Source: Candidatus Moraniibacteriota bacterium (GTDB lineage: Bacteria > Patescibacteriota > Minisyncoccia > Moranbacterales > UBA11712). Taken from it: a stretch of 43,703 bases of DNA. The stretch lies in NCBI GenBank assembly GCA_026396255.1, contig JAPLXD010000013.1:1-43703 (forward strand). The letters run 5' to 3'. Position numbers and translations under genes: made by a program. Shown here in pieces: positions 728-34,542 of the stretch. The notes under the pieces were generated by a model. That model was not told where the DNA came from. It worked only from the letters and a program-made list of their open reading frames with translations, and did not search any database. The first letter of the stretch is position 1. Every line of letters begins with the position of its first letter.

Positions 728-740
728 ATTTTGGTATATA

Positions 741-814
741 GTATTTAGTATCTGGTATTTAGTATATCGTCTCAAAAAAATAAAATACTAAATACAAAAT
801 ACAAGATACTAAAT
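741..814. repeat. AT-rich direct/inverted repeat in the nifS-nifU intergenic region
   Basis: gtatttagtatctggtatttagtat followed by the near-inverted atactaaatacaaaatacaagatactaaat. Confidence 0.75.
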
Positions 815-13691: not shown

Positions 13692-14855
13692 TCAGCTCGC
13701 AAGACTGGAGTAAATCTTCAATATTTTTTCCGCGTTTTTTTGCCAGGTGTAAGTTTTGGCGACTTCAGTCCCCTTTTTGATCAAATTCTTTCGCAGATTT
13801 TCGTCTGACAAAATTTCTTGGATTTTTCGGGCGAATTCTTCGGATTTTTTCGGATCGCAAAATAGCGCTGCGTCCTTGCCGATCTCGCGAAGAACCGGAA
13901 TGTCAGAGCAGACAACCGGCGTCTCGGCGGCCATGGCTTCGATGATTGGAATTCCAAAGCCTTCGTATAGTGATGGAAAAACAAAGCAGCTTGCCAGTTT
14001 GAACAAAGCCGGCTTGTCTTCCTCGTCGATCCAGCCGGGGAAAATAATTTTGTCTTCGAGATGAAATTTTTCAATTGCCTCGTCGATTTTCGGATCAAAA
14101 TTACGCGCCTTGCGGTTTCCGGCGAGAATAAGAGGAGTATCCAAATCTCTCATTGCCTCAATCAAAACAGGAATATTTTTTCTCGGCTGAAGCGTGCCTA
14201 TATATAGTATGTATTTTGTATCTGGTATTTTGTATCTGGTATTGATTTTTTTGATTTCATCAGTAGAATATTTTTTGTTAAATCGGCTAAAGTCTACTCC
14301 ATTGTACGCGCAAGCAACTTTTTCCGGAGGAATTTTGTAAAATTCAACGATATTTTTTTTCTCACTTTCTGAGACAGCGATAATCTTGTTTGCCCTGCGA
14401 ATACTTCTCGGAATCAAATTTCTCAAAAAAAACAAATCGGATTTCCGGATATATTCAGGAAAATAATTGAAAGAAATATCGTGGATGGTCAAAACCAGTT
14501 TGATTTCCGCCTCTCCGGCGGATCGCCGATGAGGCGATTTCGGCAGCCAAAACGGCGCGATGTATTGCGTATGAAAAACATCAACGGTATTTTTTTTGAG
14601 ATAATGCGGGAGTGCCCACAAATTCCACCAAAAACGGTTGGGGCAGTTGATAAAAATAACTTTGAAATTGTCGGCTAGTTTCAATTTATCAATTTCGGTT
14701 TTTAGCTCTTGATTCTTTTGGGGGTCTCGGTCGGTGAAGAGAAAATATTCATTTTTGCTATCCATTTCCGCCAAGTTTTTCACCAAATTGAAAAACACCG
14801 CTTCATCGCCGGTTCTTTTTTTGCCGATCATTCGGATATCAATGCCGATTTTCAT
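13692..14855 (-). CDS. Glycosyltransferase family 4 (GT-B), with repeat-derived segments
   Basis: MKIGIDIRMIGKKRTGDEAVFFNLVKNL; YILYIGTLQPRKNIPVLIEAM; FPSLYEGFGIPIIEAMAAETPVVCSDIPVLREIGKDAALF. The upstream ORF extension is spurious. Confidence 0.93.
   Translation of the reverse strand: MKIGIDIRMIGKKRTGDEAVFFNLVKNLAEMDSKNEYFLFTDRDPQKNQELKTEIDKLKLADNFKVIFINCPNRFWWNLWALPHYLKKNTVDVFHTQYIAPFWLPKSPHRRSAGEAEIKLVLTIHDISFNYFPEYIRKSDLFFLRNLIPRSIRRANKIIAVSESEKKNIVEFYKIPPEKVACAYNGVDFSRFNKKYSTDEIKKINTRYKIPDTKYILYIGTLQPRKNIPVLIEAMRDLDTPLILAGNRKARNFDPKIDEAIEKFHLEDKIIFPGWIDEEDKPALFKLASCFVFPSLYEGFGIPIIEAMAAETPVVCSDIPVLREIGKDAALFCDPKKSEEFARKIQEILSDENLRKNLIKKGTEVAKTYTWQKNAEKILKIYSSLAS
14211..14238. repeat. 14-bp tandem direct repeat inside the GT4 gene, same family as 741-814
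   Basis: gtattttgtatctg x2; matches intergenic gtatttagtatctggtatttagtat with two A/T changes. Confidence 0.8.
14507..14537. repeat. Tandem-hairpin palindromic element inside the GT4 gene
   Basis: CCGCC-tctc-CGGCGG-A-TCGCCG-atg-AGGCGA; same architecture as 36606-36636. Confidence 0.85.
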
Positions 14856-30346: not shown

Positions 30347-31144
30347 ATGATTCGTTTCTCTGCTATTACTCCCCATCCAACTGTAATTATCCCATCCATC
30401 GGGAAAAGCAATTTAAACTTGGTGCGCAAAACCGCCAACGCGATGAAACAGATCGGGGAAAAATTTCGGGCGGTGAAAGCGGATACGATCGTTCTGATTT
30501 CTCCGCACGGGCCGGTGCAGTATGACAAATTCATGATCAACTATTCCCCGACCCCTCGGGGAGACCTGGGTTCGTTTGGGGATCAACGAAGGTTTGTTTT
30601 TGAAAACAACCGGGAACTGGTCGACGAGATTATGAAACTTGCCCGGGAGTCGCGCTTGCCGGTCGGCCTGGTGCGAGAACTTGAACTTGACCGGGGAGCG
30701 CTGGTGCCGCTTCACTATCTTGTGAGTGAAAAGGACACGGCCTACAATCCAAAATTGGTCCATATGTCTTTTTCTATGCTGCCGCTTGAATACCATTTTA
30801 ATTTCGGCCGGGTGTTGGGAAAAGTTTTGCAAGAATCGCCGAAAGTGATTTCGCTCATCGCGAGCAGCGATTTGTCTCATCGTGTGTCTCCCGGATCACC
30901 AGCCGGCTACTCTCCGCAAGGGAGGATTTTTGACAAAAAATTGGTTGATTTTTTGAAACGGAAAAATATCAAGGGAATTTTGGAAATCGAACCGGAATTG
31001 ATTGAAGAAGCCGGCGAATGCGGCTTGCGGTCGATTGTGATGATGCTCGGCGCGATTTCCAATCTGCGTTGGGATATCCGGGCGATGAGCTATGAAGCGC
31101 CGCTCGGAGTGGGATATCTCGCAGCGAATATCAATATCAAATGA
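30347..31144 (+). CDS. Memo/LigB-like class III extradiol dioxygenase superfamily protein
   Basis: FSAITPHPTVIIPSIG, IVLISPHGPV, ELELDRGALVPLHYL, VISLIASSDLSHRVSP. Confidence 0.85.
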   Translation: MIRFSAITPHPTVIIPSIGKSNLNLVRKTANAMKQIGEKFRAVKADTIVLISPHGPVQYDKFMINYSPTPRGDLGSFGDQRRFVFENNRELVDEIMKLARESRLPVGLVRELELDRGALVPLHYLVSEKDTAYNPKLVHMSFSMLPLEYHFNFGRVLGKVLQESPKVISLIASSDLSHRVSPGSPAGYSPQGRIFDKKLVDFLKRKNIKGILEIEPELIEEAGECGLRSIVMMLGAISNLRWDIRAMSYEAPLGVGYLAANINIK

Positions 31145-33096
31145 AAAAATATATCATCCAAGTGGCTCCTCTCGTTCCCCTTCCGGTTCTGCGCACGCAG
31201 GCTTTTTCATATTGGCACGGTGAACCCTTGCCGGTCGGAACATTGGTTTCGATCCCTTTTTACTTCCGGGAGATTGAAGGGATCGTGGTTAAAGTCCGAG
31301 AGGATATTTCATCGAAGAGTTCTTTTAAGTTGAAAAATATCAGAGTCGTCAGAGAGAAAAAATTTTTGAGTGAAAACCAGGTTGAGCTGGCGCGAAGAAT
31401 CGCCGAATACTATTTTTCTCCGCTTGGGTCAGTTCTCAAGCTGATGGTTCCGAAAATTGTAAAAAAACAAGCGAAAGACAAAAAAGTAGCAAAAAAAGCG
31501 ATAAAAACGGGAAAAATAGGCGAGATTGCCTTGAAAATGCTGAAAAGCGACAAGGCAAAATTTTTCCTGGCCGGAAACGCCAAGCAAAGGGAAAAAACAA
31601 ACATCGATTTGATCCGGTCTTATCTCAAGAAAAACAAGCAGTGCCTTGTTCTCGCGCCGGAGATATTTTTTTCGCAAAGCATCTTTGACAAATTGAGCGC
31701 AGAATTTTCCGAAGAAATCGCGCTCGTTCATAGCAAGATAACAAAAGGGCAATACTGCGAATTTTGGAAAAAAATCAAAGGCGGCCAAATCAAAATAGTG
31801 ATCGCCTCAAAAATGGGAATATTTTTGCCGTTTGCGGATCTGGGTCTGGTCATTGTTCAGGAAGGCCAGGATCCGTCTTTCAAGCAGTGGAAAGCGATGC
31901 CCCGCTACAACGGCGCGCGCGGAGCGGAATTTTTGGCGCAAATTTCAGGCGCAAAATTGGTTTTGGAAAGTTTTGCGCCGTCGGTGGAAAACTTGTATCA
32001 ATCGAAAAGAGGTGATTTAGATATTATTGAGACGAAATGGAGATCGGATCTCCATGATGGAGATCCGATCTCCAGGCTTCCAAAATTGGAAGTTGTTGCG
32101 CTGGAAGGAGAAAAGAAAAACGCTGATTTCCCTATCTCCAAAGAACTGTACAGTCGGTTGGCTGAAATCGTGAACAGCAAAAAACAGGCCGTTGTCTTCA
32201 TGAACCGGCGCGGATTTTCCACTCGCACGATTTGCGAGAATTGCAAGAAACCGCTGAAGTGTCCGAAATGCGATTTGGCGCTTGTGTTTTCCGATGAACA
32301 CAGCGAGTATCATTGTTTGCACTGCACCTTCAAGATGGATCTTTTGAGCTCCTGTCCGACGTGCGGCGGATTTCAATTCACGCATCGCGGAATCGGGACG
32401 CAGACGGTCGAGAAAAAAATCAAAAGGCTTTTTCCGTCGGCGCGAGTCGTCCGGCTGGATGCAGATGTGATGAAAAGCCAGGCGAAATACAAAACTATTC
32501 TGAAAGATTTTTTGGCGGGTGGAATCGATATTCTTGTCGGGACGCAGTCGGCGATCAAAGGAATATATTCGGAGAACATCAAACTGGCCGCTTCGATCTC
32601 CGGAAAAGACTTCGCGGACGAGATAAATTTCAATTCAAGGGCTCTCGCGCTTTCCCGGGTTTTCAATATGGCGAATTTGATCAACGAGGACGGAGTTCTG
32701 CTGGTCCAATCTTTCTTCGGCGGCAGTTCCCTTTTCGATTTTTTGGAGAAGAAGGAATTGAAAAAATATTTCGCGCAAGAGCTCGCGATGCGGAAAAGAT
32801 TGGGCTATCCCCCGTTTCGAAAACTTGTAAAACTTTCTTTTCGCGACAAATCTGAAAAAAAGGCCGCAAGCGAAACAAGAAAAGCATTTGACTTGCTGCG
32901 TACGACAGGCAATAATATGGTTGAAATCATCGGGCCTTACATTTCGTTTTCTGGACAAAAAAAAGGCATATACACGCGAAATATTCTCATAAAGTGCGAT
33001 CCGGAAAAAAATATCAGTGACCTGCCGATCCGTGCCGTCATCGGAGGGCTCAGCAAGGGTTGGAGCGTGGATGTGGATCCGATTTCAATAATGTAA
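31141..33096 (+). CDS. priA: PriA-like primosomal protein with degenerate helicase motifs
   Basis: PriA 3' BD and Zn-binding region (CENCKKPLKCPKC...HCLHC...CPTCGG), CLVLAPEIFFSQ and GTQSAIKG retained; Walker A and DEEH positions altered. Confidence 0.88.
   Translation: MKKYIIQVAPLVPLPVLRTQAFSYWHGEPLPVGTLVSIPFYFREIEGIVVKVREDISSKSSFKLKNIRVVREKKFLSENQVELARRIAEYYFSPLGSVLKLMVPKIVKKQAKDKKVAKKAIKTGKIGEIALKMLKSDKAKFFLAGNAKQREKTNIDLIRSYLKKNKQCLVLAPEIFFSQSIFDKLSAEFSEEIALVHSKITKGQYCEFWKKIKGGQIKIVIASKMGIFLPFADLGLVIVQEGQDPSFKQWKAMPRYNGARGAEFLAQISGAKLVLESFAPSVENLYQSKRGDLDIIETKWRSDLHDGDPISRLPKLEVVALEGEKKNADFPISKELYSRLAEIVNSKKQAVVFMNRRGFSTRTICENCKKPLKCPKCDLALVFSDEHSEYHCLHCTFKMDLLSSCPTCGGFQFTHRGIGTQTVEKKIKRLFPSARVVRLDADVMKSQAKYKTILKDFLAGGIDILVGTQSAIKGIYSENIKLAASISGKDFADEINFNSRALALSRVFNMANLINEDGVLLVQSFFGGSSLFDFLEKKELKKYFAQELAMRKRLGYPPFRKLVKLSFRDKSEKKAASETRKAFDLLRTTGNNMVEIIGPYISFSGQKKGIYTRNILIKCDPEKNISDLPIRAVIGGLSKGWSVDVDPISIM
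32038..32074. repeat. Perfect 17-bp inverted repeat inside priA
   Basis: tggagatcggatctcca-tga-tggagatccgatctcca. Confidence 0.95.
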
Positions 33097-33103
33097 AAGT
33101 ATG

Positions 33104-33135
33104 CTTAAAATAATCAAATCTTAAAATAATCAAAT
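33104..33135. repeat. Perfect 16-bp tandem duplication at the def 5' end
   Basis: cttaaaataatcaaat x2 (33104-33119, 33120-33135). Confidence 0.97.
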
Positions 33136-33149
33136 ATCCAAACGATTTC

Positions 33150-33575
33150 TTGCGAAAAAAAACGCGGGAAGTCAAAGTTGAAGAATTGAAAGGTCCGAAA
33201 ATCCAGCGGCTTATTTTGGATATGGCCAAAACGATGGAAGTCGAGAAGGGAGTTGGCCTGGCCGCGCCGCAAGTCGGATCGGATCTTCGCATTTGTACTA
33301 TTGCGGCCGACGATGAAGTGTATGTTTTAATCAATCCGAAAATAAAATCATCTTCGCGAAAAAAAGATATTTTCGAGGAAGGCTGCTTGAGTTTTCCGGG
33401 AAAATTTTTTCCGGTCGAGCGTCCGATTAATGTGAAAGTCCAAGCGCGGGACAGAGGGGGGAAAAAAGTGAAGATCAAAGCGGACGGTCTCTTCGCGCGG
33501 GTGCTTCAGCACGAAATCGACCATCTGGATGGGATACTAGTGATCGACCGGGCGGTGAAAGGGAAATTAGGATAA
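33150..33575 (+). CDS. def: Peptide deformylase (5' end disrupted by tandem duplication; ancestral ATG probably 33101)
   Basis: GVGLAAPQVGSD, EEGCLSFPG, LQHEIDHLDGILVID motifs. Upstream codons KYPNDFLRKKTREV continue the PDF N-terminus. Confidence 0.92.
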   Translation: MRKKTREVKVEELKGPKIQRLILDMAKTMEVEKGVGLAAPQVGSDLRICTIAADDEVYVLINPKIKSSSRKKDIFEEGCLSFPGKFFPVERPINVKVQARDRGGKKVKIKADGLFARVLQHEIDHLDGILVIDRAVKGKLG

Positions 33576-33576
33576 T

Positions 33577-34542
33577 TTGGCGAATATGGGAAATCAGGGA
33601 ACAAAAATTATTTTTTTTGGCACGCCGGAGTTTGCGGCGGTTATTTTGAGGTCGCTTATTGATCACGAATACAATATCGCGGCGGTTTTTACTCAGCCGG
33701 ACAAAAAAGTCGGCCGAAAACAAGAAGTTTTTTTCTCGCCAGTTAAAGAGTTGGCGGCTGAAAATAAAATAAAAATATTCCAGCCACAAGACTTGCGTGA
33801 AAACGGATTAAGCGAAGCGATAAAAGGAATAAAGCCGGATCTTTTTGCTGTCGCGGCATACGGGAAAATTTTGCCGAAAGATATCTTGGAAATTCCGAAA
33901 TACGGGGCGGTGAATATCCATGCCTCTCTTCTCCCGAAATATCGGGGCGCGTCGCCTGTTCAATGTGCAATCCTCGCGGGAGAAAAAGAAACGGGCATCA
34001 CGTTGATGAAAATGAACGAAAAAATGGACGAGGGCGATATTCTGCTCCAGGAAAAAATAAAAATAGACGGAAAAGATACGACAGATGTATTGATGAAAAA
34101 ATTGGCCGAGCTGGGGGCAAAAATGACTGCGGACTTCATTCCGGACTGGGTCAACGAGAAAATTGATTCGTTCCCGCAAGATCATAGCAAAGCCACATAT
34201 TGCAAGCCGGTGAAAAAAGAAGACGGAAAAATCGATTGGAATGAAACGGCCGATGATATTTTCCGCCAGTGGCGGGCATACCAGCCTTGGCCGGGAATAT
34301 TTTCAGATTTGAAGATAAAGAACCGATCAAAAAGATTAAAGCTGCTCGGGATTGGGATCGTTGCCGACATGGAGGCTGGCGAAAAACCCGGAAAAATCGT
34401 AAAATACAACCGGGGAATTGCCGTCCAAGCAAAAAAGGGGTTGATAGCTTTGAAAAAAATACAGCTTGAAGGAAAGAAAGAAATGGATGTTAATGATTTT
34501 GTGAGGGGCAATGAAGAATTTATTGGGAGTATATTAGAATAA
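33577..34542 (+). CDS. fmt: Methionyl-tRNA formyltransferase (start may be ATG 33586)
   Basis: IIFFGTPEFAAVILRSLI, VFTQPDKKVGR, NIHASLLPKYRGASPVQCAILAGEKETGITLMKM, RAYQPWPGIF. Confidence 0.97.
   Translation: MANMGNQGTKIIFFGTPEFAAVILRSLIDHEYNIAAVFTQPDKKVGRKQEVFFSPVKELAAENKIKIFQPQDLRENGLSEAIKGIKPDLFAVAAYGKILPKDILEIPKYGAVNIHASLLPKYRGASPVQCAILAGEKETGITLMKMNEKMDEGDILLQEKIKIDGKDTTDVLMKKLAELGAKMTADFIPDWVNEKIDSFPQDHSKATYCKPVKKEDGKIDWNETADDIFRQWRAYQPWPGIFSDLKIKNRSKRLKLLGIGIVADMEAGEKPGKIVKYNRGIAVQAKKGLIALKKIQLEGKKEMDVNDFVRGNEEFIGSILE

Follow-up and report, generated by a model that had tools for sequence, protein, structure and literature searches.

Chen et al. 2020 (PMC7111523) described local errors in metagenome assemblies, reporting a Candidate Phyla Radiation genome with 13 such errors in 1.13 Mb. 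According to this study Ns are put in despite overlapping flanks, so that duplicate sequence is left behind, and wrong repeat numbers are another common error of metagenome assembly. Short tandem duplications are also known from a biological context, as phase variation of the pneumococcal capsule genes by this route was described by Waite et al. 2001 and 2003, cited in an excerpt of PMC4022640. The peptide deformylase gene def is essential when fmt is present, as stated in an excerpt of PMC12690207 and in agreement with established knowledge.

The window analysed here, a stretch of 43,703 nucleotides, represents contig C15 of a metagenome-assembled bacterial draft genome of 925,653 bp in 61 contigs. 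It contains def in the gene order priA-def-fmt, with the following features:

31141 to 33096, plus strand: priA, the upstream neighbour, whose stop lies 4 nt before ATG 33101
33101 to 33124, plus strand: frame of seven codons (MLKIIKS*) opened by the expected def start codon; the position of the ATG is the same in the relatives L003, L006, L007 and L008
33104 to 33119, plus strand: first copy of CTTAAAATAATCAAAT (sequence, TRF, genome search)
33120 to 33135, plus strand: second, perfect copy of CTTAAAATAATCAAAT, which shifts the frame (sequence, TRF, genome search)
33114 to 33575, plus strand: open frame of peptide deformylase (def) without a standard start near the N-terminus (ORF, profile and structure-alignment evidence)
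33577 to 34542, plus strand: fmt (methionyl-tRNA formyltransferase), the intact downstream neighbour (ORF and profile match)

Judged by its sequence, the assignment of the def frame to the peptide deformylases is certain. In profile searches it matches the full domain of Pep_deformylase PF01327 (E 1.8e-48) and scores above the cut-off of NF001159. The catalytic motifs GVGLAAPQ, EGCLS and QHEIDH are all present in this single frame, confirming an earlier sequence-only reading that considered them intact. The frame is preceded by a TAA at 33111, is open from 33114 and ends with its own stop at 33573-33575. Its first ATG, GTG or TTG is the TTG at 33150, the sole standard start in the N-terminal part, and initiation would indeed be limited to this codon or to a non-standard one, as that reading had proposed. 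A start at TTG 33150 would remove the residues LKIIKYPNDF, whose counterpart in alignments with solved deformylases is the first strand. A standard start before the first conserved strand is missing from the gene as assembled. Another def copy was rejected, since a search of the genome revealed def in single copy.

The missing start goes back to the tandem repeat of CTTAAAATAATCAAAT, which was detected with 2.00 copies, a match of 100% and a TRF score of 64, just as the sequence-only reading had seen it. The identity of the 16-bp copies ends exactly at both edges, on either side. Translation from ATG 33101 yields MLKIIKS and then meets the stop TAA at 33122-33124, so that the predicted ending of this frame after seven codons was likewise found. 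The unit is unique to the def start in the whole 925,653-bp genome when up to two mismatches are allowed, which ruled out a dispersed element. A comparable perfect duplication (period 9-60 with 14 or more matching bases) occurred by chance in 1 of 60 simulated windows, a figure that leaves out the position directly 3' of an essential gene's start codon; an origin by chance is therefore unlikely. The GC content of the unit is 12.5%, and local GC dips to 0.20 compared to 0.44 for the window.

A comparison with sister genomes, which had been suggested as a check, was performed with seven genomes of the same family. In four of them (L003, L006, L007 and L008) def begins with ATG-Leu-Lys-X-X-Lys-Tyr-Pro at the same position, matching the expectation that one copy gives a normal N-terminus, and in the remaining three the N-terminus is slightly longer. 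Neither a duplication nor a repeat array was present at the def start in any of the seven. Ahead of the conserved N-terminal strand, each of the 109 homologous loci carries a standard start, namely ATG in 95, GTG in 12 and TTG in 2 cases. These alignments support the single-copy arrangement as the normal state of the def start. Given the standard starts of the relatives, the assembled def is abnormal and could only work with an unusual start. For the same locus in another species or strain, a GTDB scan returned more distant relatives only, and viral contigs gave no match. The relatives compared included no further species of the same genus.

To judge the assembly itself, about 401 kb (43%) of the same genome, including the window, was sampled together with 311 kb from the seven same-family genomes. 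The polA gene turned out to be broken by an exact tandem duplication of 49 bp in 2.00 copies (C14:3946-4043; L161:3946-4043, G000:C14). Its first ~762 residues and its last ~147 residues lie in different frames, whereas the last part is found within one frame of 889-908 aa in six of the seven relatives and within a frame of 470 aa in the remaining one (G004). A single N on C21 (L166:3954, G000:C21) has the 12 nt TTTGGACAATGA on both flanks, and another single N inside dnaE (C8:1623; L138:1567-1679, G000:C8) lies between two 56-nt repeats, which are 84% alike and of which the first contains a run of A. Judged by their flanks, these two sites appear to be scaffold joins whose overlaps were left unmerged, and the polA duplication is probably an assembly error. 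In the 311 kb of the seven same-family genomes neither an N nor a gene-splitting perfect tandem duplication was detected.

Based on these findings we consider the second 16-bp copy to be a local assembly error, not biology, with a probability of roughly 0.84. This reading is favoured because essential genes elsewhere in the assembly contain further exact duplications and joins with unmerged overlaps. At def, an exact duplicate of the flank is present at one point in a gene that is intact in relatives, and the same kind of error occurs elsewhere in this assembly and is absent from the related ones. Furthermore, def is a single-copy gene beside an intact fmt and is undamaged apart from its start. 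That exact two-copy duplications should recently have disrupted polA as well as def in a viable cell, while the other sampled genes stayed intact, is difficult to accept.

An overlap of 16 bases between two assembled ends may have been left unmerged when these were joined end to end; alternatively, a gap between two assembled ends may have been wrongly closed. The site of the join would be AT-rich and probably poorly covered, as the low GC content makes a coverage dip plausible. The duplications in def and polA would reflect the same unmerged-overlap error without an N, or wrongly closed gaps. We infer that the second copy lacks read support; the repeat is probably present in the sequence file and absent from the organism, which would possess an ordinary def starting at ATG 33101.

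Two observations argue against an assembly error. No N marks the join at def or at polA, so that it is inferred rather than seen. In addition, the overall quality of the consensus is good, since a search of 288 proteins of relatives against the first 252 kb of the genome revealed no split genes. On the same grounds, frameshifts as a general problem of this assembly were rejected. Two apparent splits at 36.8-38.4 kb were not counted, as the neighbouring frames were matched by one ORF of a relative and its antisense.

Real tandem duplications of about 16 bp also arise by mutation. A real and recent change at the def start is nevertheless unlikely. It would imply that deformylase is made at a low level from a non-standard start or that the lineage is declining. 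Translation would begin at ATA 33126 or ATC 33129, yielding a protein that is a few residues short, or at TTG 33150; reinitiation after the seven-codon frame, which ends at 33124, is a possible variant. Such a change is consistent with the def frame being open from 33114, with ATA 33126 and ATC 33129 in frame directly behind the short frame's stop, and a very young change would leave the remainder of def undamaged, as observed. ATA and ATC are weak start codons. A start at TTG 33150, on the other hand, loses the LKIIKYPNDF segment, which all 109 homologues keep behind a standard start. The idea that a Shine-Dalgarno motif backs an alternative start was rejected: among sampled genes of at least 200 aa no enrichment upstream of the first ATG was observed (13/175 genes compared to 16/175 controls), and the identity of the start codon probably matters more in this genome. 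The mutation and its rescue by ATA 33126, ATC 33129 or TTG 33150 would be two rare things needed together, and other duplication errors are found in essential genes of the same assembly.

We regard it as very unlikely that a two-copy allele is really present in the population and that a small Moranbacteria-like cell tolerates or regulates a deformylase with a broken start via non-standard initiation or a reversible duplication. Also very unlikely is a reversible on/off switch in which the level of deformylase depends on one-copy and two-copy alleles that slippage converts into each other. Switches of this type concern dispensable surface genes, as exemplified by the pneumococcal capsule genes with their short spontaneous tandem duplications (excerpt of PMC4022640). 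At the def start there are just two copies, and no repeat array is kept at this site in the seven same-family genomes. Moreover, def is essential with fmt present, so that cells in the off state would die or barely survive. The least probable explanation is a +1 shift at TCT-TAA (33119-33124) by which the ribosome bypasses the stop and fuses the short frame to deformylase: it would land in the def frame, but re-pairing of the serine tRNA is presumably poor, no stimulatory element was noticed without a systematic search, and none of the seven relatives has a counterpart. Of the three explanations offered by the sequence-only reading, the artefact thus gains support from the sister errors in the assembly, a recent mutation is less favoured than the artefact, and nothing found supports the reversible switch.

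Other repeats were noticed alongside. A palindrome of about 37 bp with the arms GGAGATNCGATCTCC is located inside priA (window 32038-32074) and at about 15 other places of the genome, e.g. C2:31904-31938, C23:44806-44840 and C28:18248-18282. Its exact hits in the genome number 15 forward and 15 reverse, against 0 in the reversed control, and it is nearly absent from the other genomes of the family, where two of the seven account for all 3 hits. The priA copy is in frame and adds about 9-12 residues compared to the relatives. It is reminiscent of the palindromic elements that occur inside Rickettsia genes. A related-looking palindrome, CCTAAGATCCGATCTTAGGAGCGTCCTAAGATCGGATCTTAGG, which has the core GATCCGATC/GATCGGATC in common, lies beside def in L008 (G002:C52), and this likeness suggests that genomes of the family carry differing versions. 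The dispersed palindrome family with its priA copy may be more interesting than the def duplication. Short tandem repeats of period 7 or 14 also recur in the genome and in relatives, some of them inside long open frames:

Window 730-814 and 14211-14243; L125:5774, L128:6869, L143:1361, L152:16015, L154:867, L168:5272 and 5364: tandem repeats of period 7/14

Taken at face value, the sequence would suggest the loss or re-wiring of an essential enzyme in this genome and, by the same error, of DNA polymerase I. Unmerged overlaps in draft genomes produce such apparent gene breaks, for which a look at other parts of the assembly for sister errors offers a rapid check. Should the duplication be genuine, it would test to what extent an essential gene can rely on non-standard initiation.

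The pneumococcal capsule genes are dispensable and their switching was observed, as far as the excerpt of PMC4022640 describes them, whereas def is essential and one allele is known. The def site differs from the N-marked joins of PMC7111523 in having no N. Nevertheless, the sites in this assembly resemble the errors described there in that a duplicate of the flank is present at a join and often breaks a gene, with a single N on C8 and C21 and without one in polA on C14.
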